The position numbers and the translations under genes were made by a program. From assembly GCA_025360705.1 (NCBI GenBank), contig JANYBQ010000199.1, forward strand, positions 1 through 34,322: a stretch of DNA of 34,322 bases, written 5' to 3'. This DNA is from Betaproteobacteria bacterium. GTDB taxonomy: Bacteria > Pseudomonadota > Gammaproteobacteria > Burkholderiales > Burkholderiaceae_C. This document shows positions 1 through 18,361 of the stretch, piece by piece. A model generated the notes under the pieces. The model was given only the letters and a program-made list of their open reading frames with translations, had not been told where the DNA came from and searched no databases. Position 1 is the first letter of the stretch, and each line of letters starts with the position of its first letter.

Positions 1-240
1 GACCCGCACGCCGTGGCAATGGCCACGGGCGTGAATACGCGTCAGGGCAGCCGACGCCTGCTCGAGTTCGCCTTCGAACATGCCATCGCCACCGGGCGCA
101 AGAAGGTCACGATCGTGCACAAAGCCAACATCATGAAGGCCCCCTGACGGGCATCTTTCTCGAAACCGGAGAGGACCTGCGAACATCGGGACTGACGCCG
201 CCATTTTTGAAGCGGTGCACGGCTCTGCGGGCGAATCGTC
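1..240 (+). pseudogene. Isocitrate dehydrogenase (NAD-type) remnant, broken by indel and internal deletion
   Basis: Frame 1 from the window edge reads conserved residues of the isocitrate/isopropylmalate dehydrogenase family: [11 protein letters not shown], then [14 protein letters not shown], and stops with TGA at 145-147. The family continuation (LTxGIFLET) is found in another frame from 144. The later motif NIGTDAAIFEAVHGSA is found in a third frame from 182. In intact relatives some 50-65 residues lie between these two motifs (family knowledge from memory), so a stretch of the central domain is missing as well as the frame being broken. Similarity fades after about 240. The 5' part of the gene lies outside the window. 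In working form this enzyme oxidises isocitrate to 2-oxoglutarate in the TCA cycle; this copy cannot encode it. An assembly error is the main alternative. Confidence 0.8.
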
Positions 241-275
241 CAGCGACGATCCACCGCCATTTTGCTGCTGCGTGA

Positions 276-473
276 TCAGGCCTTCGACGCCGAGTCGTCT
301 TCCTGGTCCAGGCCGCTCGGGACGAAACTGACGCCGTGGTGAACCAGGTAGTCACGGATCAAGCGTCGGACCACTTGCGAGGGGGTCACGTCCTGTCGGG
401 CGCACAGGGTCTCGAAAGCCTTTTTCTTTGCCGGGTCCACTAACACGGTCAGGCGCGCTGTCTTGAGTTCCAT
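276..473 (-). CDS. Small ribbon-helix-helix (CopG/Arc-like) DNA-binding protein
   Basis: A 65-residue protein. The N-terminal stretch KTARLTVLVDPAKKKAFE has the alternating pattern of the RHH beta strand. It is followed by two predicted helices (residues about 15-26 and 30-45) with the turn DVTPSQVVRR, as in CopG/Arc/MetJ-fold dimers. The tail after residue 50 is acidic (DQEDD). The start at 473 is chosen over an upstream frame extension because GGAGAG sits 4-5 bases before it and the RHH fold begins there. A promoter and a 15-bp palindrome lie just upstream, which suggests self-repression. No toxin gene is adjacent, so an antitoxin role is not supported. It sits between the icd remnant and dctM. 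Target and function are unknown; the fold call is fairly secure. Confidence 0.7.
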   Translation of the reverse strand: MELKTARLTVLVDPAKKKAFETLCARQDVTPSQVVRRLIRDYLVHHGVSFVPSGLDQEDDSASKA

Positions 474-482
474 GTGCTCTCC

Positions 483-497
483 ATATGGTATCCATAT
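483..497. promoter_or_regulatory. Palindromic operator candidate upstream of the RHH gene
   Basis: Perfect arms ATATGG and CCATAT are separated by TAT. The site lies 10 bases upstream of the RHH start codon and overlaps the edge of the predicted -10 box. A second, weaker palindrome (TGCAT-gat-ATGCA, 531-543) lies just upstream of the -35. Placement fits autorepression by the RHH protein (inference). Confidence 0.45.
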
Positions 498-523
498 TAT
501 CATTTTAGTGTAATACAGAGCAA
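496..523 (-). promoter_or_regulatory. Putative sigma-70 promoter for the RHH gene
   Basis: On the minus strand TTGCTC (523-518) and GATAAT (501-496) are 16 bases apart, 23 bases before the start codon, in an AT-rich island within GC-rich surroundings. The rest of the 474-716 gap shows no gene that I can support. Confidence 0.45.
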
Positions 524-716
524 TATAGATTGCATGATATGCAGGGAAACCCCGATCCTTCATGACAAGCGTCTTCTGGTCGGTCGTGTAGTAGAAGTAG
601 CAGACCACGCCCGCGGCACCAGGCCAGAGGCATAGTAGACCCTGCCGCGGACCGTGGAGAGCAGCCAACCATGCATCTGCTGCACGGTTCAACCGCTGGC
701 GGTGCACGCGCCCGAT

Positions 717-7888: not shown

Positions 7889-10183
7889 ATGACCACACCC
7901 AAAGACAAACAGGCGGAACTGCGCCAGGCGTCGCTTGACTACCACGAGCATCCGACACCGGGCAAGGTCGCGATCAACGCGACAAAGCAACTGACCAACC
8001 AGCGCGACCTGGCGTTGGCCTACTCGCCCGGTGTGGCCGCTGCCTGCGAGGAGATCGTCGTCAACCCGGCCAACGTGTTTCGTTACACGTCGCGTGGCAA
8101 CTTGGTCGCGGTGATCACCAATGGTACGGCGGTGCTCGGGCTGGGCAACATTGGGCCGCTGGCCGCCAAACCGGTGATGGAAGGCAAGGCGGTATTGTTC
8201 AAGAAGTTTGCCGGCATCGATGTGTTCGACATCGAGATCAACGAGTCGGATCCGAGGAAGCTGGTCGAGATCATCGCCTCGCTCGAACCCACTTTCGGCG
8301 GCATCAATCTGGAGGACATCAAGGCGCCAGACTGCTTCGTCGTCGAGCGCGGCCTGCGCGAGCGCATGAAGATTCCCGTCTTCCATGACGACCAGCACGG
8401 CACGGCCATCGTTGTAGCGGCGGCCATCCTCAACGGCCTGCAGGTCGTCGGAAAGGACATCCGGCAGGTCAAGCTGGTTGCCTCGGGCGCCGGTGCCGCG
8501 GCGCTGGCCTGCCTGAACCTGCTGGTCACCCTGGGTTTTCCGCGCCCGAACATCTGGGTCACCGATCTCGCGGGCCTGGTCTACGAAGGTCGGCAGGAAT
8601 TGATGGACGACGAGAAGAGGGCCTTTGCGCAAAAGACCGGACTGCGGACGCTGGCCCAAGTCATGCCCGAAGCCGACATCTTCCTCGGCCTGTCCGCCGG
8701 CGGGGTGTTGAAGCCCCACATGGTCGCGGACATGGCGCCTGACCCCTTGATTTTAGCGCTGGCGAACCCGACGCCGGAAATCATGCCGGAGGAAATCAAG
8801 AAGGTACGCGAGGACGCGGTGATTGCAACCGGGCGCAGCGACTACCCGAATCAGGTCAACAACGTACTTTGCTTTCCGTACATCTTTCGGGGGGCACTGG
8901 ACTGCGGTGCGATGACCATCACTCCCGAAATGGAGGTGGCCGCCGTTCAGGCCCTGCGTGAACTTGCAATGGCGGAACAGAGCGACCTGCTGATGGCAAG
9001 CTACGCCGGCGCCGTCTCGACGTTCGGGCGCGAGCATCTCATTCCGCGTCCGTTCGACCAGCGGCTGATGGTGCGCATCGCGCCTGCCGTGGCCAAAGCG
9101 GCCGCCGAGTCCGGCGCCGCCACACGGCCCATCACCGACTTTGACGCCTACCGCGAGAAGCTACAGGCTTTTGTGTACGCCTCTGGCACGACCATGAAGT
9201 CGATCTTCAGCGTTGCCCGGAACGCCCAACACAAACGCGTGGCCTATGCCGAGGGCGAGGAAGAGCGGGTGCTGCGCGCCGCCCAGGTGGTAGTGGATGA
9301 AGGCCTCGCCCGGCCTACGTTGATCGGCCGACCGGTGGTGATCGAACAACGTATCGAGCGGTTTGGTCTGCGCCTTCAAGCCGGCCGCGACTATGATCTG
9401 GTGAACACCGAGCACGACGAACGTTACCGCGATTTCTGGCAGACCTACCTTGGTTTGACTGACCGCCGGGGCATGACACAGCAGACCGCCAAGATCGAGA
9501 TGCGCCGACGCCTCACCCTGATAGGCGCCATGTTGCTGCGCAAGGGCCAGGTCGACGGAATGTTGTGCGGTACCTGGGGTACGACGGCGATGCATCTGCA
9601 GTACATCGACCAGGTGATTGGATTGCGCCAGGGAGTAAGCACGTACGCATGCATGAACGGGCTGATGTTGCCGGACCGGCAGATTTTTCTGGCCGACACC
9701 CATGTCAACTACGACCCGAGCGCGGAGCAAGTGGCCGAGATAACCGTGCTTGCGGCAGAAGAAATGCGCCGCTTCGGCCTGACGCCGAAGGCGGCGCTGC
9801 TATCGCACTCCAATTTTGGATCGAGCAACCAGCCTTCCGCCGTCAAGATGCGCGAAGCGCTTGGTCGCATCGATGTACTGGCTCCGTGGCTGGAAGTCGA
9901 CGGCGAGATGCACGGCGATACCGCGCTTGACAGCGCCTACCGCCACGAGATCATGCCCGGCACCACGCTGATAGGTGACGCCAACCTGCTGGTGATGCCC
10001 AACCTCGACGCCGCGAACATAACCTACAACCTGCTGAAGACGGCCGCTGGCGGTGGCATTGCGATTGGGCCGGTGCTGCTTGGAGCGGCGCGACCGGTAC
10101 ACATCCTGACGCCCTCCGCCACCGTGCGCCGCATCGTCAATCTGACCGCACTGACGGTCGCGGATATCAACGCGACGCGTTGA
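7889..10183 (+). CDS. maeB: NADP-dependent malic enzyme with C-terminal phosphotransacetylase-like domain
   Basis: 764 residues, the length of MaeB-type fusions. Residues about 15-430 form the malic enzyme part, with AYSPGVAAACEEI (catalytic Tyr region), FGGINLEDIKAPDCF, the metal-site motif VFHDDQHGTAIV and the nucleotide-binding GAGAAALACLNLL. Residues about 440-764 resemble phosphate acetyl/butyryltransferase (RVAYAEGEEERVLRA, SHSNFGSSNQPSAVKMR, EVDGEMHGDTALD). In MaeB proteins this domain has a regulatory role in response to acetyl-CoA rather than being a known catalyst. The enzyme converts malate to pyruvate with NADPH formation. With a dicarboxylate-type TRAP importer nearby it could feed imported C4 acids into pyruvate (inference). 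Confidence 0.95.
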   Translation: MTTPKDKQAELRQASLDYHEHPTPGKVAINATKQLTNQRDLALAYSPGVAAACEEIVVNPANVFRYTSRGNLVAVITNGTAVLGLGNIGPLAAKPVMEGKAVLFKKFAGIDVFDIEINESDPRKLVEIIASLEPTFGGINLEDIKAPDCFVVERGLRERMKIPVFHDDQHGTAIVVAAAILNGLQVVGKDIRQVKLVASGAGAAALACLNLLVTLGFPRPNIWVTDLAGLVYEGRQELMDDEKRAFAQKTGLRTLAQVMPEADIFLGLSAGGVLKPHMVADMAPDPLILALANPTPEIMPEEIKKVREDAVIATGRSDYPNQVNNVLCFPYIFRGALDCGAMTITPEMEVAAVQALRELAMAEQSDLLMASYAGAVSTFGREHLIPRPFDQRLMVRIAPAVAKAAAESGAATRPITDFDAYREKLQAFVYASGTTMKSIFSVARNAQHKRVAYAEGEEERVLRAAQVVVDEGLARPTLIGRPVVIEQRIERFGLRLQAGRDYDLVNTEHDERYRDFWQTYLGLTDRRGMTQQTAKIEMRRRLTLIGAMLLRKGQVDGMLCGTWGTTAMHLQYIDQVIGLRQGVSTYACMNGLMLPDRQIFLADTHVNYDPSAEQVAEITVLAAEEMRRFGLTPKAALLSHSNFGSSNQPSAVKMREALGRIDVLAPWLEVDGEMHGDTALDSAYRHEIMPGTTLIGDANLLVMPNLDAANITYNLLKTAAGGGIAIGPVLLGAARPVHILTPSATVRRIVNLTALTVADINATR

Positions 10184-10222: not shown

Positions 10223-10981
10223 ATGCCCGATAGCCTGATGTCAGCGCTGCATACCAAGCCCTTTGTCTACGAGACCTTGAGTTCGAAGTCGCTCCACTTC
10301 ACCATGGGCGAGACCCAAAGCCAGATGCGGCTTCAGGATCCGGATGTGCTGGATCTGGAGTACACCCGCGTGATGATGGGGTTCCTGTTGTTCCATCCGC
10401 GGCCGGACCGTATTGCGATGATTGGCCTGGGCGGCGGTTCCATGGCCAAGTATTGTTATCGGCACCTTCTCCGGTCAAGTATCGATGTCATCGAGATCAA
10501 TCCCCATGTGATTGCCTTGCGCGACGAATTTCATGTGCCCCCCGACAACGAGCGATTCAACGTGATCCGCGGCGACGGCGCGCAGTTTGTTCATGAGCGC
10601 GCGACCCGGTACGACGTATTGCTGGTGGACGGATTCGTCAGTCACGGCCTGCCGTCGCGGCTGTGTTCGCAGGGCTTTTACGATGATTGTCGCGAGACAT
10701 TGCTACCGGGCGGGGTGCTGGTTGTCAATCTGCACGCCAGCCACCCGCATTTCAAGATGCATGTCGCTCGCCTCTGCCGTACCTTCAACGATGCGGTCCT
10801 CGTTGTCGACGATGGGGAAATGAACAACAGCATCGTATTTGCCTGGGAATCGGAAAACATCTTTGACAGGCTTCGGCCAGGCCTGGTGCGCACTCCAGGG
10901 AGGATTGACAATATTGGCGCAAACCAGTTGCTGGGCGCCTTTGCCATAATCGCATCTGCAATCAGAGACCGGAAACGCTAA
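10223..10981 (+). CDS. Spermidine synthase-like (polyamine aminopropyltransferase fold) protein
   Basis: 252 residues of the class I methyltransferase/spermidine synthase fold. The nucleotide-binding strand and loop read MIGLGGGSMAKYC (about residues 70-82), followed by IDVIEINPHVIALRD, whose acidic residue binds the ribose in the family. DVLLVDGFVSHGLP corresponds to the catalytic-Asp loop, and GGVLVVNLH follows. The N-terminal beta domain is short (about 60 residues). Genes of this type are widespread in betaproteobacteria as spermidine synthase-like proteins of unproven substrate, so calling it SpeE would go too far. It follows maeB by 39 bases and precedes the Ehr-like operon by 184 bases; no regulatory element was recognised in that gap. 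Confidence 0.75.
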   Translation: MPDSLMSALHTKPFVYETLSSKSLHFTMGETQSQMRLQDPDVLDLEYTRVMMGFLLFHPRPDRIAMIGLGGGSMAKYCYRHLLRSSIDVIEINPHVIALRDEFHVPPDNERFNVIRGDGAQFVHERATRYDVLLVDGFVSHGLPSRLCSQGFYDDCRETLLPGGVLVVNLHASHPHFKMHVARLCRTFNDAVLVVDDGEMNNSIVFAWESENIFDRLRPGLVRTPGRIDNIGANQLLGAFAIIASAIRDRKR

Positions 10982-11165
10982 CCCGCCTGGACGACAAAGC
11001 ATCTATGGCCCGTGGACTCGCAGATCATCACCGCTCGTTGCTCGCCACCCCAGCGTCGCGAGACCGCGGGGGTGGGCCAGCGGGCAGCGTCGCCTGGCTT
11101 TCGATGGTCCCGGGGATCGCCGCGTATGGGGTCCGGTGCGTCCGACGGAGCAAGGCCATGGAGCC

Positions 11166-13190
11166 ATGAGTGGCCTGTCCGCGGCAGCGCAATGGCTTCA
11201 CCTCGACTGGATGCTTTTGGTGGTTGCGGCATGGCTGCTGGTGGGAGTCGCGGGGGTGGCGGCCTTGCACCGGTTCAACGTGGTGTCCCATGTGCTCTTT
11301 CCGGCCGGCGGCGTGCTCGGACTGGTGCTCTTTGGTCTTGCCCTGGGCGCGCTGACGAACACACCCGAGGTGGCCGTGCTGCCGATCGGTCTACCCGCGT
11401 TGCCCTTCCACATGCGCCTGGACGCCTTGTCGGCGTACTTCCTGATGGTGATCGGGGCCGCATCGGCCGGCATCTCCGCGTTCGCGGCCGGTTATTTCCG
11501 CAAAGGCGAAGGAACGCCGCCGGGTCTTCTGTGCCTTGAGTACCACGTGTTCCTGGCCAGCATGGTAGGGGTCGTGCTGGCCGACGACGCCTACGCGTTC
11601 ATGGTGATGTGGGAGACGATGGCGTTGTCGTCGTTCTTCCTCGTGACCGCGAACCACCGTATCCCGGAGGTGCGCAGCGCCGGTTACCTCTACATCGTGA
11701 TGGCGCACATCGGCGCCATCGGGGTGTTGCTGTGCTTCGGCGTGTTGCAGGCCAACACCGGCGACTACACCTTCGGCAATATGCGCGCCCAGGCGCTGAC
11801 CCCGTTCTGGGCCTCGACCGGCTTCCTGCTGGCGGTCTTCGGATTCGGCGCCAAGGCCGGCATCCTGCCGCTGCACGTCTGGCTGCCCGAGGCTCACCCT
11901 GCCGCGCCGTCGCCGGTCTCGGCGATGATGAGCGGCGTCATGCTCAACACCGCTATTTACGGCCTGTTGCGGGTGTCGCTGGACTTGCTGCACCTGCGGC
12001 TGTGGTGGTGGGGCGGGCTTCTGCTGGCGGTCGGTCTGGTCACCGCGATGTTCGGCGTGGTGTTTGCCGCCGTCCAGACCGACATGAAGCGGTTGCTGGC
12101 CTATTCGTCGATCGAGAACATGGGACTGCTGTTCGTCGGCATGGGGCTGACGCTGATCTTCTCGGGCTACGGCATGCAGCCGATGGCCGCACTGGCCCTG
12201 ACGGCCACGCTCTACCACGTCGCCAGCCATGCCTGCTTCAAGAGCCTGCTGTTCCTCGGCACCGGCAGCGTGCTGCACGCCACCTCCGAGCGAAACCTCG
12301 GCAAGCTCGGCGGCCTGATCCGCACCATGCCCTGGGTGAGCTGGCTCATGCTGCTTGGCGTGCTGGCCAGCGCCGGCCTTCCGCCGCTGGGCGGCTTCGT
12401 GTCGGAGTGGCTGCTGCTGCAGAGCTTCCTGTTCGCACCCGGCCTGCCGGTGCCGCTGTTGACCATGCTGATTCCGGTGGTGGCGGCGCTGATTGCCTTG
12501 GTCGCGGCGCTGGCTGGCTACACCATGGTCAAGTTCTTCGGCGTGATCTTCCTCGGCCAGCCGCGCGAGGACAAGCTCGCGCACGCCCACGATGCCGGCG
12601 CCTGGGAGCGCGCGGGCATGGTGTGGCTGGCGCTCGGCTGCGTGGCGCTCGGCCTGCTGCCGACACAGTTCATCCAGCTGATCGACCCGGTTACCCAACA
12701 ACTGGTACATGCAGGTCTGGGGGCCCGGGTGGCTGGCCACGGCTGGCTGCTGGCGCCCAACAGCACCGAGCAGGCCAGCTACGGCCCGGTGATTTTCCTG
12801 CTCGGCATCCTGGCCAGCTTTGCGCTCGCGTACCTGCTCGTGCGCATCTTCTACCACGGGCGCACGCGCCGCGGGCCGGCCTGGGCCTGCGGCTTTCCAT
12901 GGGTCACCGCACGGATGCAGGACACGGCCGAGGGGTTCGGCCAGCCGATTCGCCAGATCTTCGACCCCTTCTTCCGGATGCGGCGCGAACTGCCGACCCC
13001 CTTCGACGAGCGGCCGCATTACCACGTCATCATCGAGGATCATTTCTGGCACTGGCTCTATGTGCCCGTCGTCGACCTGGCCAACCACATCGCGCGCCTG
13101 TTCGGGCTGATGCAGCAAGGCCGCATCTCCATCTACCTGCTGTACAGCTTCGTGACACTGGCCGCCACGCTGCTGGTGGTGATGCAATGA
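11166..13190 (+). CDS. hyfB: Hydrogenase-4 subunit B-like / complex I NuoL-type antiporter subunit (Ehr-like)
   Basis: 674 residues with about 14-16 membrane segments. The proton-antiporter core is clear: MVMWETMALSSFFLV with the conserved membrane Glu, LPLHVWLPEAHPAAPSPVSAMMSG with its Lys/His chain, and DMKRLLAYSSIENMG. The C-terminal region (FRMRRELPTPFDERPHYH, then a last helix) is as in HyfB. It would translocate H+ or Na+ across the inner membrane as part of the six-gene module. The ATG at 11166 is preferred over the upstream frame because GGAG precedes it by 4 bases and the first helix follows soon after. It is the first gene of the operon; hyfC starts 7 bases after its stop. Confidence 0.9.
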   Translation: MSGLSAAAQWLHLDWMLLVVAAWLLVGVAGVAALHRFNVVSHVLFPAGGVLGLVLFGLALGALTNTPEVAVLPIGLPALPFHMRLDALSAYFLMVIGAASAGISAFAAGYFRKGEGTPPGLLCLEYHVFLASMVGVVLADDAYAFMVMWETMALSSFFLVTANHRIPEVRSAGYLYIVMAHIGAIGVLLCFGVLQANTGDYTFGNMRAQALTPFWASTGFLLAVFGFGAKAGILPLHVWLPEAHPAAPSPVSAMMSGVMLNTAIYGLLRVSLDLLHLRLWWWGGLLLAVGLVTAMFGVVFAAVQTDMKRLLAYSSIENMGLLFVGMGLTLIFSGYGMQPMAALALTATLYHVASHACFKSLLFLGTGSVLHATSERNLGKLGGLIRTMPWVSWLMLLGVLASAGLPPLGGFVSEWLLLQSFLFAPGLPVPLLTMLIPVVAALIALVAALAGYTMVKFFGVIFLGQPREDKLAHAHDAGAWERAGMVWLALGCVALGLLPTQFIQLIDPVTQQLVHAGLGARVAGHGWLLAPNSTEQASYGPVIFLLGILASFALAYLLVRIFYHGRTRRGPAWACGFPWVTARMQDTAEGFGQPIRQIFDPFFRMRRELPTPFDERPHYHVIIEDHFWHWLYVPVVDLANHIARLFGLMQQGRISIYLLYSFVTLAATLLVVMQ

Positions 13191-13197
13191 GGCAGAC

Positions 13198-14145
13198 ATG
13201 AGTTTCACCGGATTCCTGGCGCAACTGATGGAGATCGCGATCGCGATCGCGCTGGCGCCGCTGCTGACCGGCTGGGTCAACCAGTGGCGCGCGTGGCTGC
13301 AGAACAAATCGGCGCCCAGCCTGTGGCAACCCTACCGCATGCTGCACAAGCTGTTCAACAAGGAGTCGACGGTCGCCGACCACGCCTCACGGCTGTTCCG
13401 CACCGCGCCCTACGTGGTGTTCGGCTGCATGACGCTGGCCTGCGCGATCATCCCCACGCTGTCCACCGACCTGCCGCTGGCGGCCGCGGCAGACGCCATC
13501 GCGCTGGTCGGCCTGTTCGCGCTGGCCCGGGTGTTCATCTCGCTGGCCGCCATGGACATCGGCACCGCCTTCGGCACCATGGGCGCGCGGCGCGAGATGC
13601 TGATTGGCTTCCTGGCCGAGCCCGCGCTGCTGATGGTGCTCTTCTCGGCCTCGCTGATCTCCCAGTCGACTTCGCTCACCACCATCGTCGAGACGCTGGC
13701 GAAGCGTGAATTCGCCATCTACCCGGGCATGGCCCTGGCGAGCGTCGCCTTCATGATGGTGTCGCTGGCGGAAAACGCGCGCGTGCCGGTCGACAACCCC
13801 GCCACGCACCTCGAGTTGACGATGATCCACGAAGCGCTGATCCTGGAGTATTCGGGCCGTCACCTGGCGCTGCTCGAGTGGGCCGCGAGCCTGAAGTTGT
13901 TCGCCTATTCCTGCATCGGCCTGGCGCTGTTCTTTCCCTGGGGCGTGGCCGACCACCAGGCGCCCGTGGCCATGCTGCTGGCACTGCCCGTGCTGGTGTT
14001 CAAACTCGCCGTCGGTGGCTTCCTGCTGGCGATGCTGGAGACGCTGAGCGCCAAGATGCGCATCTTCCGCGTGCCCGAGTTCCTGGGCACCGCCTTCCTG
14101 CTGGCCGTGATCGGCATGCTGGTGCAACTGCTGCTTAGCCATTGA
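13198..14145 (+). CDS. hyfC: Hydrogenase-4 subunit C-like / NuoH-type membrane subunit (Ehr-like)
   Basis: 315 residues, about eight membrane segments. Family features include PLLTGWVNQWRAWLQNKSAPS-type cytoplasmic loop with QPYRMLHKLFNK, the acidic loop ALARVFISLAAMDIGTAFGTMGARREM, and NARVPVDNPATHLELTMIHEALILEYSG, where the Glu/Asp-rich segment corresponds to the quinone-cavity loop of NuoH. In group 4 hydrogenases and complex I this subunit joins the peripheral small/large subunits to the ion-pumping arm. It begins 7 bases after hyfB and ends one base before the hyfE ATG, so the genes are almost certainly co-transcribed. No truncation is seen. Confidence 0.92.
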   Translation: MSFTGFLAQLMEIAIAIALAPLLTGWVNQWRAWLQNKSAPSLWQPYRMLHKLFNKESTVADHASRLFRTAPYVVFGCMTLACAIIPTLSTDLPLAAAADAIALVGLFALARVFISLAAMDIGTAFGTMGARREMLIGFLAEPALLMVLFSASLISQSTSLTTIVETLAKREFAIYPGMALASVAFMMVSLAENARVPVDNPATHLELTMIHEALILEYSGRHLALLEWAASLKLFAYSCIGLALFFPWGVADHQAPVAMLLALPVLVFKLAVGGFLLAMLETLSAKMRIFRVPEFLGTAFLLAVIGMLVQLLLSH

Positions 14146-14146
14146 G

Positions 14147-14806
14147 ATGAGCATCCTGCTGACCCAGTTTGTCAACCTGCTTGGCGCCATGCTGCTGATG
14201 CTCGCGTTCGCCATGCTGTCGCAGCGCCGCATCGTGTCGCTGATCAACCTGTTCACGCTGCAGGGCGCGACGCTGGCGCTGGTTACCGCCGTGGTCGGTT
14301 ATGTGACGGACCAGCACCACCTGTATCTGTCGGCCGGCCTTACCTTCGTGCTCAAGGTGCTGTTGATTCCCTACCTTCTGCACCGCCTGATCGACCGGCT
14401 CAACATCCGCTGGGACATCGAGACGCTGATCAACATCCCGACCACCATGCTGATCGGCATCGGCGTCGTGATCTTCTCCTTCAATCTCGCGCTGCCGATC
14501 TCGCGGCTGTCGTCGGCGCTGGCCAGCGGCACGCTGGGCATCGCGCTGGCCTGCGTGCTGCTGTCGTTCCTGATGATGATCACGCGCGCCAAGGCGGTGC
14601 CGCAGGTGATCGGTTTCCTGGCCATGGAGAACGGCCTTTTCTTCGCCGCCACCTCGGCCACGTACGGCATGCCGATGGTGGTCGAACTCGGCATCGCGCT
14701 CGACGTGCTGATCGGCGTGGTCATCCTGGGTGTATTCATGTTTCAGATCCGCGAGCAATTCGACAGTCTGGACATCCGCCACCTCGAGAATCTGAAGGAG
14801 GACTGA
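14147..14806 (+). CDS. hyfE: Hydrogenase-4 subunit E-like membrane protein (NuoK-related, Ehr-like)
   Basis: 219 residues with six or seven membrane segments. The N-terminus (QFVNLLGAMLLMLAFAMLSQRR, LINLFTLQGATLALVTAVVGY) and the second half (QVIGFLAMENGLFFAA, ELGIALDVLIGVVILGVFMFQIREQF) match HyfE. The ENG segment and the Glu/Asp of ELGIALD are the residues likely to take part in ion conduction, by analogy with NuoK. It lies between hyfC and hyfF with one-base gaps on each side. Full length. Confidence 0.9.
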   Translation: MSILLTQFVNLLGAMLLMLAFAMLSQRRIVSLINLFTLQGATLALVTAVVGYVTDQHHLYLSAGLTFVLKVLLIPYLLHRLIDRLNIRWDIETLINIPTTMLIGIGVVIFSFNLALPISRLSSALASGTLGIALACVLLSFLMMITRAKAVPQVIGFLAMENGLFFAATSATYGMPMVVELGIALDVLIGVVILGVFMFQIREQFDSLDIRHLENLKED

Positions 14807-14807
14807 G

Positions 14808-16277
14808 TTGGGCTTCGAGCTGAATGCGCTGGCCTTTCTGCTTGCCTGCCCTCTGGCCGGCGGGCTGGTGCTGGCGCTGGTCGGCCAGCGCGACAACGCA
14901 CGCGACGTCAATGTCGCCTTCAGCCTTGGCACCTTCCTTGCGGCCTGCGTGTTGACGGCGCGGATCATCCAGGGCGGCCCGATGCTGGTGTGGAACCGCG
15001 AGTTCTACATCGACCCGCTCAACGTCTTTCTCGTCACGCTGACCGCGTTCGTGGGTCTGACCACGTCGATATTCTCGCGCCCCTACATGCGGGTGGAGCG
15101 CGACCACGGCAAGATGACGCCGCCGCGCATGCGCCTGTACCACAGCATGTACCAGATGTTCAGCTTCACGATGCTGCTGGCACTCACGACCAACAACATG
15201 GGCATCATCTGGGTCGCGATGGAGGCCGCCACGCTGACCACCGTGCTGCTGGTCAGCGTGTATCGCACGGCGGCCAGCCTGGAGGCGGCGTGGAAATACT
15301 TCATCCTGTGTGGCGTGGGCATCGCCCAGGCACTGTTCGGCACGGTGCTGCTCTACATGGCGGCCGAGAAGGTCATCGGGCCGGAAGGCGGGGCACTGCT
15401 CTGGACCAACCTCGATGCGGTCAAGGGCCAGCTCGATCCGAACATCATCACGCTGGCTTTTGCGTTCCTGTTCATCGGCTACGGCACCAAGGTCGGCATG
15501 GTTCCAGTGCACAACTGGCTGCCCGACGCGCACGCCGAGGGACCAACGCCGGTGTCCGCTGTGCTATCGGGCCTGTTGCTCAACGTCGCGCTCTATGCGA
15601 TCCTGCGCTGCAAGGTTCTGACCGATGGCGCGCTGCACAACAATCATCTGACCGGTCGGTTGATGATGGGTTTTGGCCTGCTGTCGGTGGTGGCGGCGGT
15701 GTTCTTCCTGATCCGGCAGAAGGACGTGAAGCGCATGTTCGCCTACTCGTCGATCGAACACATGGGGCTGATCACCTTCGCCTTCGGCATGGGCGGCCCG
15801 ATCGCCAACTTCGCGGGGCTGCTGCACATGACGGTGCATTCGTTGATCAAGTCGGCGATCTTCTTTGCCGTTGGCCATGCCACCCAGCAGGCCGGCACGC
15901 AAATCATGGAGCACATCCGCGGCCTGATCAAGGTCAGCCCGACGGTCGCCTGGGGGCTGATGCTCGGATCGCTGGCGATCCTGGGCATGCCGCCATTCGG
16001 AGTCTTCGCCAGCGAGTTCCTGATCATCACCACCGCGATGCGCGAGCAGCCGTGGGCAACACCGTTCCTGCTGATCGCCCTCGGCGTGGCGTTCGCGTCG
16101 ATTTTCAGCCGCGTCCAGCCGATGGTGTTCGGCGAGTCCAGCGTCCAGCCCCTGGAGCATCCACCGGCATTGGTCCCGGTGTTCGTGCACCTGGGGCTCG
16201 GACTGATGCTGGGCCTGTACATACCGCCTTATCTCAACACCTGGTACCGCCAGGCCGCGGCGATGCTGGGGAACTGA
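14808..16277 (+). CDS. hyfF: Hydrogenase-4 subunit F-like antiporter subunit (NuoN/M-type, Ehr-like)
   Basis: 489 residues with about 13-14 membrane segments. It has the antiporter signatures: WVAMEAATLTTVLLVS with the membrane Glu, TKVGMVPVHNWLPDAHAEGPTPVSAVLSG, DVKRMFAYSSIEHMGLITFAFG and HMTVHSLIKSAIFFAVGH. It is a second ion-translocating subunit besides hyfB, giving two antiporter-type subunits as in Hyf and Ehr complexes. The start codon is TTG at 14808, supported by AAGGAGG six bases upstream and by alignment with the first helix. Such a rare start may lower its translation relative to neighbours. Confidence 0.92.
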   Translation: MGFELNALAFLLACPLAGGLVLALVGQRDNARDVNVAFSLGTFLAACVLTARIIQGGPMLVWNREFYIDPLNVFLVTLTAFVGLTTSIFSRPYMRVERDHGKMTPPRMRLYHSMYQMFSFTMLLALTTNNMGIIWVAMEAATLTTVLLVSVYRTAASLEAAWKYFILCGVGIAQALFGTVLLYMAAEKVIGPEGGALLWTNLDAVKGQLDPNIITLAFAFLFIGYGTKVGMVPVHNWLPDAHAEGPTPVSAVLSGLLLNVALYAILRCKVLTDGALHNNHLTGRLMMGFGLLSVVAAVFFLIRQKDVKRMFAYSSIEHMGLITFAFGMGGPIANFAGLLHMTVHSLIKSAIFFAVGHATQQAGTQIMEHIRGLIKVSPTVAWGLMLGSLAILGMPPFGVFASEFLIITTAMREQPWATPFLLIALGVAFASIFSRVQPMVFGESSVQPLEHPPALVPVFVHLGLGLMLGLYIPPYLNTWYRQAAAMLGN

Positions 16278-16280
16278 CCG

Positions 16281-17831
16281 ATGACCTTGCCGGAGCTTGG
16301 ACTCGACCTGCGGCGCCTGCCGGCACCGTTGCCGATCTGGCATGGGCGGGTGGACCGCACCCAGTGGCTGGCCACGGCCCGCGCGATTTCGGAACACGGC
16401 GGGCGATTGGTGTCGATGTGGGGCGTTGATCGCCAGGCCACGGCGGGCGGGAGCGCGGCATGTGCGGCCTTTGCCGTGTTCGAAGGCCTGGTCTGGCTCG
16501 AACTGGCTGTCGACGACGTGGCCGCCGGTTTCCCCGACCTCGCTCCCGCGTTTCCCTGCGCCGTGCGGATGCAGCGCGCCATGGCGGACCTGTCGGGCCT
16601 GCGGGCCGAGGGCAGCCACGACCAGCGCCCGTGGCTCGACCATGGCCTGTGGGGGGCCGGGCCGGCGCCGCTGCAGCGCGACGCCCGGCCCGCATCGGAG
16701 AACGCCGCACCATTGCCCGCCGACTACCGCTTCGTGCGGGTCGAAGGCGACGGCGTGCACGAGATCGCTGTCGGGCCGGTGCACGCGGGCATCATCGAGC
16801 CGGCTCACTTCCGCTTGTCGGTCGTTGGCGAGAAGGTGCTGCGACTGGAAGCGCACCTGGGGTATGCGCACAAGGGCATCGAGCGGCGCTTCACCGAGCT
16901 GGCCCCGCTCGACGCCTACCGGCTTGCCGGCCGGGTATCGGGTGATTCGACGGTGGCCTACGCCTGGGCCTATTGCATGGCGCTTGAATCGGCCTGGGGC
17001 TGCGAGCTACCCGTGCGCGCCGCCTGGCTGCGCGCGCTGATGCTGGAACGCGAGCGCGTGGCCAACCACCTGGGAGACCTCGGTGCGTTGGGCAACGATG
17101 CAGCCCTGTCCTTTGGCCTCGCGCAGTTCTCGCGCCTGCGCGAAGACTGGCAGCGTCTGTCCAGGGAAGCCCTGGGGCATCGCTTCATGATGGACGCCAT
17201 CGTGCCCGGCGGCGTGGCAATGGACCTGTCGGCGCCGATGCGCGATCGCCTGCACCAGCAGTGCGATGCGGTCGAGCGCGATGTGCGTGCGCTGCGCATC
17301 GTGTACGACGAACATGCCGGCCTGCAGGACCGGTTTCTCACCACCGGCCGCGTCATGCCGGCGTTGGCTGCGCAGCTCGGCCTGACGGGGCTCGCGGGGC
17401 GTGCCAGCGGGCAGGCCTTCGACCTGCGTAGCGATCACCCGTGGACGCCTTACGACCGTTTCGAGGTACGCATGGCAACGCACCGGAACGGAGATGTGGC
17501 GGCACGCGTCACCGTGCGCTTCGAGGAGGTGTTCGAATCGTTGCGGCTGATTCGCGCGTTGTGCAGTGGCGTGCCGTCAGGCGGGATCCGGGTCGACCCG
17601 CGGCCGCCTTCGGCACGGGCGGCTGGTGCGGGCTGGGTGGAAGGCTGGCGCGGCGAGGTGTTCGTCGCGCTGGAAGTCGGAGCCGACGGCGCCATCGTGC
17701 GTTGCCATTGCCACGACCCGTCGTGGCAAAACTGGCCGGTGATCGAACATGCCACCATCGGCAACATCGTTCCGGACTTCCCGCTGATCAACAAGTCGTT
17801 CAACTTGAGCTACTCCGGGCACGACCTCTGA
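16281..17831 (+). CDS. hyfG: Group 4 hydrogenase-like large subunit (NuoC-NuoD-type fusion) lacking Ni-Fe cysteines
   Basis: 516 residues. Residues about 1-120 resemble the NuoC-like domain, and about 150-516 the 49-kDa/large-subunit domain (HLGYAHKGIERRF, then ALMLERERVANHLGDLGALGND). Catalytic [NiFe] enzymes carry C-x2-C after an Arg at the first site and DPC-x2-C at the second. Here the first site is RVSGDS at residues 218-223 and the second DPSWQN at 479-484, so all four metal-ligand cysteines are missing while the framing residues remain. Hydrogenase chemistry is therefore not expected. This pattern is that of Ehr-type complexes and of NuoD. The stop shares one base with the ATG of the small subunit. 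Confidence 0.9.
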   Translation: MTLPELGLDLRRLPAPLPIWHGRVDRTQWLATARAISEHGGRLVSMWGVDRQATAGGSAACAAFAVFEGLVWLELAVDDVAAGFPDLAPAFPCAVRMQRAMADLSGLRAEGSHDQRPWLDHGLWGAGPAPLQRDARPASENAAPLPADYRFVRVEGDGVHEIAVGPVHAGIIEPAHFRLSVVGEKVLRLEAHLGYAHKGIERRFTELAPLDAYRLAGRVSGDSTVAYAWAYCMALESAWGCELPVRAAWLRALMLERERVANHLGDLGALGNDAALSFGLAQFSRLREDWQRLSREALGHRFMMDAIVPGGVAMDLSAPMRDRLHQQCDAVERDVRALRIVYDEHAGLQDRFLTTGRVMPALAAQLGLTGLAGRASGQAFDLRSDHPWTPYDRFEVRMATHRNGDVAARVTVRFEEVFESLRLIRALCSGVPSGGIRVDPRPPSARAAGAGWVEGWRGEVFVALEVGADGAIVRCHCHDPSWQNWPVIEHATIGNIVPDFPLINKSFNLSYSGHDL

Positions 17832-18361
17832 TGTGGCGCATCCTCCAACAAATCGTGCGCACCGGCATTGTCACGGAGCCGACGCCGCAAGTCGTGGATG
17901 CCGACGGCGCGGCGGTCCAGCGGCTGCATCGGGACATACTCGATATTCTGGGCCACGCGTTGACCATTCGCGTGGTCGATGCCGGGTCCTGTAATGGCTG
18001 CGAGCTGGAGATCAACGCACTCCACAACCCGTACTACAACATCGAGGGGCTTGGCATCAAGTTCGTCGCCAGCCCGCGCCATGCCGACATGCTGCTGGTG
18101 ACCGGGCCGGTGTCGCGCCACATGGAAGAGGCGCTGCGCCGCACCTATGACGCCACGCCCGAACCGAAGCTGGTGATCGCGCTGGGCGACTGCGGTTGCA
18201 GCGGCGGCATTTTCGGCGAGAGTTATGCCAGCCGCGGCAAGGTGGCCAACGTGATCCCGGTCGATGCGACCGTACCCGGTTGCCCGCCGCCGCCGATCGA
18301 TATCCTGCGTGGGATTCTCGGCGCGGTAAAGCAACGACAGGCCAAACCTCGCGCGGGTTAG
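17831..18361 (+). CDS. hyfI: Group 4 hydrogenase-like small subunit (NuoB-type, Ehr-like)
   Basis: 176 residues. Four cysteines suited to bind one [4Fe-4S] cluster, equivalent to N2 of complex I, are present: C54 and C57 in GSCNGCELE, C121 in GDCGCSG and C151 in VPGCPPPP. The protein would pass electrons next to the cofactor-less large subunit HyfG and sit on the HyfC membrane subunit. It starts within TGATG at the end of hyfG. No gene for a HyfH/NuoI-type two-cluster ferredoxin subunit lies before or after it, and the next gene is on the opposite strand, so how electrons reach the cluster is not shown here. The 18362-18442 gap holds no convincing terminator hairpin. Confidence 0.93.
   Translation: MWRILQQIVRTGIVTEPTPQVVDADGAAVQRLHRDILDILGHALTIRVVDAGSCNGCELEINALHNPYYNIEGLGIKFVASPRHADMLLVTGPVSRHMEEALRRTYDATPEPKLVIALGDCGCSGGIFGESYASRGKVANVIPVDATVPGCPPPPIDILRGILGAVKQRQAKPRAG

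Follow-up and report, generated by a model that had tools for sequence, protein, structure and literature searches.

The window considered here, a 34,322-nucleotide stretch of betaproteobacterial DNA (contig JANYBQ010000199.1 of GenBank assembly GCA_025360705.1), carries hyfBCEFGI, an intact six-gene operon at 11136-18361 (+ strand) whose genes run in one direction almost without gaps. The encoded complex almost certainly belongs to the Ehr/Hyq class and is an ordinary, well-preserved member of this already known class: its large subunit, HyfG, lacks the CxxC pairs of [NiFe] hydrogenases and groups in a tree with other large subunits lacking the ligand set, in agreement with the initial annotation, which had assigned the complex to Ehr. 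The reaction proposed for it, a guess of moderate strength given a probability of roughly 45%, is that of an ion-translocating redox complex with a soluble ferredoxin-type partner acting through HyfI and quinone as the presumed other partner. The genes are:

hyfB, 11136..13190, + strand: NuoL/M-like ion-translocating membrane subunit, 684 residues (PF00361, 1.1e-52; NCBIfam hydrogenase 4 subunit B profile, 917.5 bits against a cut-off of 667)
hyfC, 13198..14145, + strand: NuoH-like subunit, 315 residues (PF00146, 7.5e-34)
hyfE, 14147..14806, + strand: membrane subunit, 219 residues (NF008556, hydrogenase 4 membrane subunit, 91.8 bits, under the cut-off of 136)
hyfF, 14808..16277, + strand: NuoM/N-like subunit, 489 residues (PF00361, 1.4e-51; NF005045, hydrogenase 4 subunit F, 917.5 bits)
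hyfG, 16281..17831, + strand: fused NuoC-NuoD-like large subunit without [NiFe] ligands, 516 residues in one intact open reading frame (PF00346 and PF00329 above cut-off, PF00374 below)
hyfI, 17831..18361, + strand: NuoB-like small subunit with one [4Fe-4S] site, 176 residues (PF01058, 7.9e-32), starting at an ATG at 17831 that overlaps the hyfG stop

No genes for HyfA, HyfD or HyfH were found within the operon, either among the open reading frames of the window or in profile searches.

Sequence and structural alignment place the ligand cysteines C241, C244, C531 and C534 of HycE at S220, S223, S510 and G513 of HyfG, so that all four are gone, as the initial annotation had claimed. It had also placed the first CxxC correctly, at RVSGDS, and had misplaced the second at DPSWQN:

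RVSGDS, HyfG residues 218-223, 16932..16949, + strand: first CxxC place (RVCGIC in HycE)
NLSYSG, HyfG residues 508-513, 17802..17819, + strand: true second CxxC place (DPCYSC in HycE); the frame ends three residues later
DPSWQN, HyfG residues 479-484, 17715..17732, + strand: equivalent of AATYAN in HycE, no ligand motif

The alignment of HycE D529-P-C531-Y-S-C534 with HyfG N508-L-S510-Y-S-G513 is gapless, and DPSWQN was rejected as the second CxxC because both sequence and structure set it against HycE A500-N505, around T502. The cysteines of the RCHCH motif (C475 and C477) were likewise rejected as metal ligands since they align with HycE W496 and C498, neither of which is a ligand, and vary among relatives (C475 in 64/107 rows, C477 in 20/107; the histidines H476 and H478 in 84/107 and 61/107). 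HyfG is 28-29% identical to the large subunits of E. coli hydrogenases 3 and 4. Its AlphaFold2 model (predicted local distance difference test score, pLDDT, 90.6; predicted template modelling score 0.93) has HycE, 7z0s_E, as its best solved match (Z 46.0, root-mean-square deviation 2.0, 508 aligned residues), residues 1..516 covering HycE 9..537. The weak spots of the model are residues 167-175 (pLDDT <50) and the last six residues (mean 54); as this loop and the C-terminus should frame the pocket, the surroundings of the pocket are its low-confidence part.

The loss of ligands is general in the family. Among 102 census rows, the window included, no ligand cysteine is present in 94, one in 8 (at 220 in seven rows, at 223 in one) and two in none, the four columns holding S/A/C/V, S/T/A/C, S/A/N and G/A, with one truncated row; the census left out L148, L156 and L158, whose HyfG proteins all end NKSFNCSYSG[VH]DL, as well as L160 (distant), L161 (catalytic) and two related types, L124b and L063b. 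In a tree of 108 rows, the window HyfG stands away from E. coli HycE and HyfG and groups with 102 other rows lacking the ligand set (support 0.993), in line with the class assignment of the initial annotation. The nearest outside relative of this clade is a four-cysteine protein (L063; support 0.917), and E. coli HycE and HyfG branch deeper; this tree contains few catalytic sequences (E. coli HycE and HyfG, L161 and L063) and a single complex-I outgroup, and support is 0 at one inner node within the ligand-less clade. The four-cysteine protein (L063:2235-3590, Betaproteobacteria, JACPTK010000096.1) is a group-4 large subunit with RICGVC and ELCYSCTDR followed by the stop; its gene has a HycF-like gene alongside and lies just upstream of a ligand-less Ehr operon on the same contig.

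HyfG was detected at E<=1e-40 in 57/200 genomes of the window's order, in 37/109 genera, one of the carriers (G190) having only a second type that is 33% identical; at E<=1e-60 it was detected in 74/398 genomes of the phylum, ten of these matches (E 6e-89 to 9e-98) looking catalytic, with four cysteines in the one examined, L161. The second ligand-less type (L162-L164), about 33-35% identical to HyfG, reads RVSG.. and ends ..AGCDR or ..AGVDR, and occurs in genomes with the window type (G045, G161) or without it (G190). All six queries match in 61 of the 80 named loci (cross-matching between HyfB and HyfF is possible); many of the other 19 lie on cut contigs, those uncut being L101 (no HyfC match), L109 and L113 (no HyfI match). 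One locus (L041:4792-19515) holds two complete HyfBCEFGI sets in tandem, the second 44-64% identical to the window subunits. E. coli HyfA, HycB, HyfH and HycF gave no match inside the operon at any of the 80 named loci (tblastn, E 1e-5), and such ferredoxin-type subunits matched outside it only at L063, in a cluster of its own next to the operon, and at L069, 5.6 kb off. The complex is under purifying selection, with ratios of nonsynonymous to synonymous substitution rates of 0.17, 0.19 and 0.18 for hyfG against three relatives, 0.13 and 0.16 for hyfI, and 0.14 for hyfF; these six comparisons over three genes (0.13-0.19) rule out a pseudogene or a decaying hydrogenase.

Unlike the nickel-iron site, the iron-sulfur site is complete. 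HyfI C54, C57, C121 and C151, counted from the methionine at 17831, are invariant in 8/8 aligned HyfI/HycG/NuoB proteins, and the N2-type [4Fe-4S] site is thus retained, as had been annotated. The charged residues of the NuoH/L/M/N membrane arm carry protons. Compared with the E. coli complex-I subunits, HyfB E160 is invariant with respect to NuoL and NuoM, HyfF E139 and K228 with respect to NuoM and NuoN, and HyfC E141, D199, E206 and E217 with respect to NuoH. HyfC has three extra residues (TMI) after E206-L207, which recur in the two aligned Ehr relatives and are lacking in HycD, in the HyfC of E. coli and in NuoH.

The last residue of HyfG, 516, falls in sequence and structure at the position of HycE R537, where HycI is reported to cleave HycE during nickel maturation (PMC7654741). 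The large subunit would therefore be made in its mature form; the C-terminal assembly peptide is absent from HyfG, and the same end position was found in 75/75 named relatives examined (80 named loci less four cut ones and L078, which is out of frame). The four-cysteine L063 protein also ends without the peptide (..CYSCTDR), which shows that some group-4 enzymes with ligands lack it too. The host genome, 94% complete, encodes a separate [NiFe] hydrogenase with RACGIC and SFDSCLVC motifs (G000:C335:14406-26278), with HypD and one HycI-type protease on the same contig, C335; no cognate HycI-type protease was found for HyfG, the sole HycI-type gene found in the genome being the one that adjoins the other hydrogenase. 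With HypD, the protease and an intact, ligand-bearing enzyme, the cell can make the cofactor that HyfG cannot hold, and loss of the ligands through an inability to make it was ruled out.

In complex I, a tyrosine in the NuoD pocket and a loop histidine bind quinone. The role of the histidine is described in part in a study that also gives, for the E. coli complex, HycE E193 as a proton-exchange residue and R478 as part of the active-site canopy (PMC9474812). In HyfG, the equivalents of these HycE residues, Glu173 and Arg457, are kept, and of the complex-I residues only NuoCD H220 is (H168), NuoCD Y273 and H224 being replaced by G221 and I172; judged from the alignment, the pocket is therefore hydrogenase-like rather than complex-I-like, with proton-handling residues kept, metal ligands lost and complex-I quinone residues absent. 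The earlier suggestion that the cavity may bind a quinone is weakened accordingly, although a quinone might still bind there. D222, located between the two missing cysteines of the first site, is invariant across 102/102 rows, as is K505, and Glu173 and Asn508 are each kept in 101/102; K505 and Glu173 are present also in the four-cysteine L063 relative and so are not specific to the ligand-less group, and R457 and D479 are no evidence because the census rows were picked by having them.

Together, the complex may be pictured as a stand-alone six-subunit member of the complex I/group-4 hydrogenase superfamily without a nickel-iron centre. With a single cluster and no input subunits, electrons have to be delivered or collected by a soluble partner; a ferredoxin-type protein would dock on HyfI and exchange electrons with this cluster, while the other redox partner, most likely a membrane quinone, would occupy what was the active-site pocket, where proton handling may still fall to Glu173 and Arg457. 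The redox reaction and the flow of ions through HyfC, HyfF and HyfB would be coupled, either one driving the other, and under low-potential demand (nitrogenase, 2-oxoacid:ferredoxin oxidoreductase) the complex might run in reverse, with the proton-motive force moving electrons uphill from quinol to ferredoxin. Two genomic associations make ferredoxin the natural candidate. A Variovorax plasmid that carries a window-type operon also has a related ligand-less cluster whose HyfI-like protein is preceded by fused ferredoxin domains (L124:4736-5485; Fer4 6.2e-9, Oxidored_q6 7.8e-24), and at two Nitrospirota loci (L103, L106) three 2-oxoacid:ferredoxin oxidoreductase genes lie one gene after hyfI. 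In Azorhizobium caulinodans, deletion of hyq is reported to slow N2-dependent growth, with a nodule nitrogenase activity of 25 against 31-33 (PMC2930871). nifD was found in 20/57 HyfG-bearing and 8/143 other genomes (P 4e-7), a link that falls to P 0.16 within families (labels for 192 of 200 genomes).

Several observations weigh against this proposal. The two Nitrospirota loci, identical in gene order, may represent a single event, and no ferredoxin family is among the 25 commonest families, per batch, of genes nearest the operon, in a scan confined to near genes that were picked by a home-made gene caller and of which 236/238 were used (two in L062 omitted). nifD was not found above cut-off in 37/57 HyfG genomes, among them all 20 of the 57 without a full-scoring RuBisCO. 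The missing complex-I tyrosine and second loop histidine speak against quinone. The chief point is the H2 phenotype of Hyq, which ferredoxin:quinone traffic leaves unexplained: in Table 2B of PMC3357923, hup-deleted cells with hyq intact yield 16 units of H2 and the double mutant 540.

The six-subunit Hyq complex of Azorhizobium caulinodans is credited with in vivo H2 uptake and evolution (PMC2650096, PMC2930871, PMC3357923). It was called a canonical Ni,Fe enzyme by Ng 2009 (PMC2650096), whereas Sprecher 2012 described HyqG of eight genera as lacking both CxxC motifs and sharing three other cysteines, Cys-258, -491 and -497 (PMC3357923). Hyq was compared here through Rhizobium johnstonii 3841, whose relative (504 residues, 45% identical to the window HyfG) has cysteines at 259, 491 and 497; this match ties Hyq and the window complex into one class. 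Hyq shares with the window the B-C-E-F-G-I set without HyfA, HyfD and HyfH, the fused NuoC-NuoD subunit, the absence of CxxC pairs and the four cysteines of the small subunit. It differs in the three large-subunit cysteines, where the window has G271, I503 and L509; all three are present in 22/102 rows and none in 65, the window among them. Columns 271 and 503 (Cys-258 and Cys-491) are both cysteine in 33 rows, neither in 65 and one only in 4, and this co-occurrence in 98/102 rows suggests that, in part of the class, the two may form a pair such as a disulfide or a metal site. Hyq differs also upstream of hyfB, where the window has a gap of 154 bases that could not accommodate the rhizobial helix-turn-helix (HTH) gene hyqR, and where no sigma54-type pattern is among the matches listed between 10069 and 11775. 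As to the NifA control of Hyq, nifD was not found in the window's genome. Over the sequence searched, 51 sigma54-like matches were obtained against 58 expected by chance, and one exact match inside hyfF was taken as chance. On the Rhizobium plasmids L121, L128, L130 and L131, the operon has a small HTH gene ahead of hyfB and a DUF4365 gene after hyfI, L129 having the HTH gene and no DUF4365; the public label of the L131 large subunit, a PLSDB relative (L131:11995-13512), is 'nickel-dependent hydrogenase large subunit' although the protein lacks nickel ligands.

It follows that the statement of the initial annotation that the complex cannot be a hydrogenase holds for a canonical [NiFe] enzyme and is otherwise too strong. 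A new kind of hydrogenase, in which Hyq-type complexes would both take up and release H2 with neither a [NiFe] centre nor Hyp maturases, coupled to quinone and ion flow, is argued for by reports that H2 recycling at 20 uM O2 depends on hyq, as does about 80% of the H2 made, at high rates, below 1 uM O2, output staying high in a nifK mutant (PMC3357923), that recycling survives loss of the 20-gene hup/hyp operon, and that Rhodocista centenaria, with hyq and no hup/hyp, recycles H2 (PMC2930871, data not presented there); the R. johnstonii cysteines extend these reports to the window's class. The three papers evidently stem from one laboratory, and their evidence, in the sections available, comes from whole cells or nodules and includes no purified enzyme; the authors themselves term the catalytic site speculative (PMC3357923), and no later test was found in the open-licence literature. 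As the window HyfG lacks all three Hyq cysteines, like 64 others of the 102 rows, its complex need not be a hydrogenase even if Hyq is one through those cysteines. This explanation is consequently considered improbable, and the specific version in which Hyq-type complexes turn over H2 without nickel or Hyp maturation, and the cysteine-less window form either shares that chemistry or has lost it, a shade more so. The canonical [NiFe] group-4 hydrogenase has next to no chance: a HycE-like overall fold and the annotation of the PLSDB relative favour it, but both CxxC pairs are missing (RVCGIC to RVSGDS, DPCYSC to NLSYSG), no census row has more than one ligand cysteine, and the missing maturation peptide and the tree agree, so that at the level of the sequence this reading is already refuted.

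Two further explanations dispense with hydrogen, both of them unlikely, the second slightly the less so. Ion flow through HyfB, HyfF and HyfC might be coupled to the hydration of CO2 or the uptake of bicarbonate, after the manner of cyanobacterial NDH-1MS or the DAB complexes. A SulP transporter gene lies within 15 kb of the operon in at least 11/57 genomes of six families against 1.2 expected, a lower bound whose significance is overstated as the genomes are related; SulP accounts for 9/236 of the nearest genes and immediately precedes hyfB at several of the named loci (e.g. L062, L077, L083). RuBisCO (E<=1e-100) was found in 37/57 HyfG-bearing and 35/143 other genomes (Fisher P 2e-7), and in A. 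caldus one hyf cluster is described beside a carbonic anhydrase gene and another near carbon fixation genes (PMC3826726), the likeness of these clusters resting on the published description. Against this, the RuBisCO link is lost within families (P 0.14; labels for 189 of 200 genomes) and may reflect ancestry, SulP proteins carry sulfate too, and the operon holds no DabA/Cup-like or zinc-site subunit (the genome was not searched for DabA/Cup), H476/H478 being unconserved outside near relatives. In the window's genome, both SulP genes found are on contigs other than that of the operon, and neither RuBisCO nor nifD was found. Alternatively, the complex could be a redox-sensing or redox-gated ion channel or antiporter, in which the HyfI cluster senses the redox state and the pocket is non-catalytic. 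One cluster, no input subunits, no ligands and intact antiporter-like subunits are what such a device would show; the fixed D222, K505 and E173, placed in the pocket by homology, are more conservation than a dead pocket needs.

Among other known systems, E. coli hydrogenases 4 and 3 (formate hydrogenlyase) share the HyfG fold and have homologues of HyfB, C, E and F, but possess the ligands, C-terminal peptide and ferredoxin subunits that are absent here. Respiratory complex I shares the fold, the place of the N2-type cluster and the membrane charges, while the window operon has neither the NADH module nor NuoI, in addition to the missing quinone residues. Earlier Ehr naming and analysis are reportedly due to Coppi 2005 and Marreiros 2013. 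In surveys, the absence of CxxC defines the Ehr class (PMC6349859, PMC10284858, PMC10432482), and Ehr of comammox Nitrospira and Riflemargulisbacteria (PMC10284858, PMC6349859) is described with a CxxC-less group-4-like large subunit and antiporter-like membrane subunits, as here; the formate dehydrogenase partner proposed for Riflemargulisbacteria has no counterpart beside the window operon. Acidithiobacillus ferrooxidans HyfBCEFGI, alike in its six genes by name alone, is classed as a non-hydrogenase by HydDB (PMC7735108).

The operon is flanked upstream by two genes on its own strand and downstream by a Na/Pi cotransporter gene on the opposite strand:

maeB, 7889..10183, + strand: malic enzyme/phosphotransacetylase fusion (NF009501, 1273 bits against a cut-off of 1178)
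spermidine-synthase-like gene, 10223..10981, + strand (PF01564, 4.8e-11)

maeB, which also adjoins the operon in loci L041 and L050, is probably not part of the complex. The spermidine-synthase-like gene is a recurrent neighbour, accounting for 7/112 near-neighbour genes in one scan batch and lying beside the operon on Variovorax, Burkholderia and Cupriavidus metallidurans replicons (L124, L125, L126).

The complex is common in the window's order, as the 57/200 carrier genomes attest, and strongly conserved; Cupriavidus metallidurans CH34 carries on its megaplasmid (L125) an operon like that of the window, with 71-86% identity in each of the six subunits. The complex has the look of an intermediate between hydrogenase and complex I, with the pocket emptied, the quinone residues absent and the pump kept. 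The literature is contradictory, in that surveys make this a non-hydrogenase class whereas Azorhizobium genetics points to fast reversible H2 turnover despite the absent ligands, and it is this contradiction that makes the complex worth testing. If the window form shares the H2 chemistry of Hyq, no cysteine at those large-subunit places would be needed for it. The window form, which lacks the Hyq cysteines, offers a natural control for their role in H2 chemistry.

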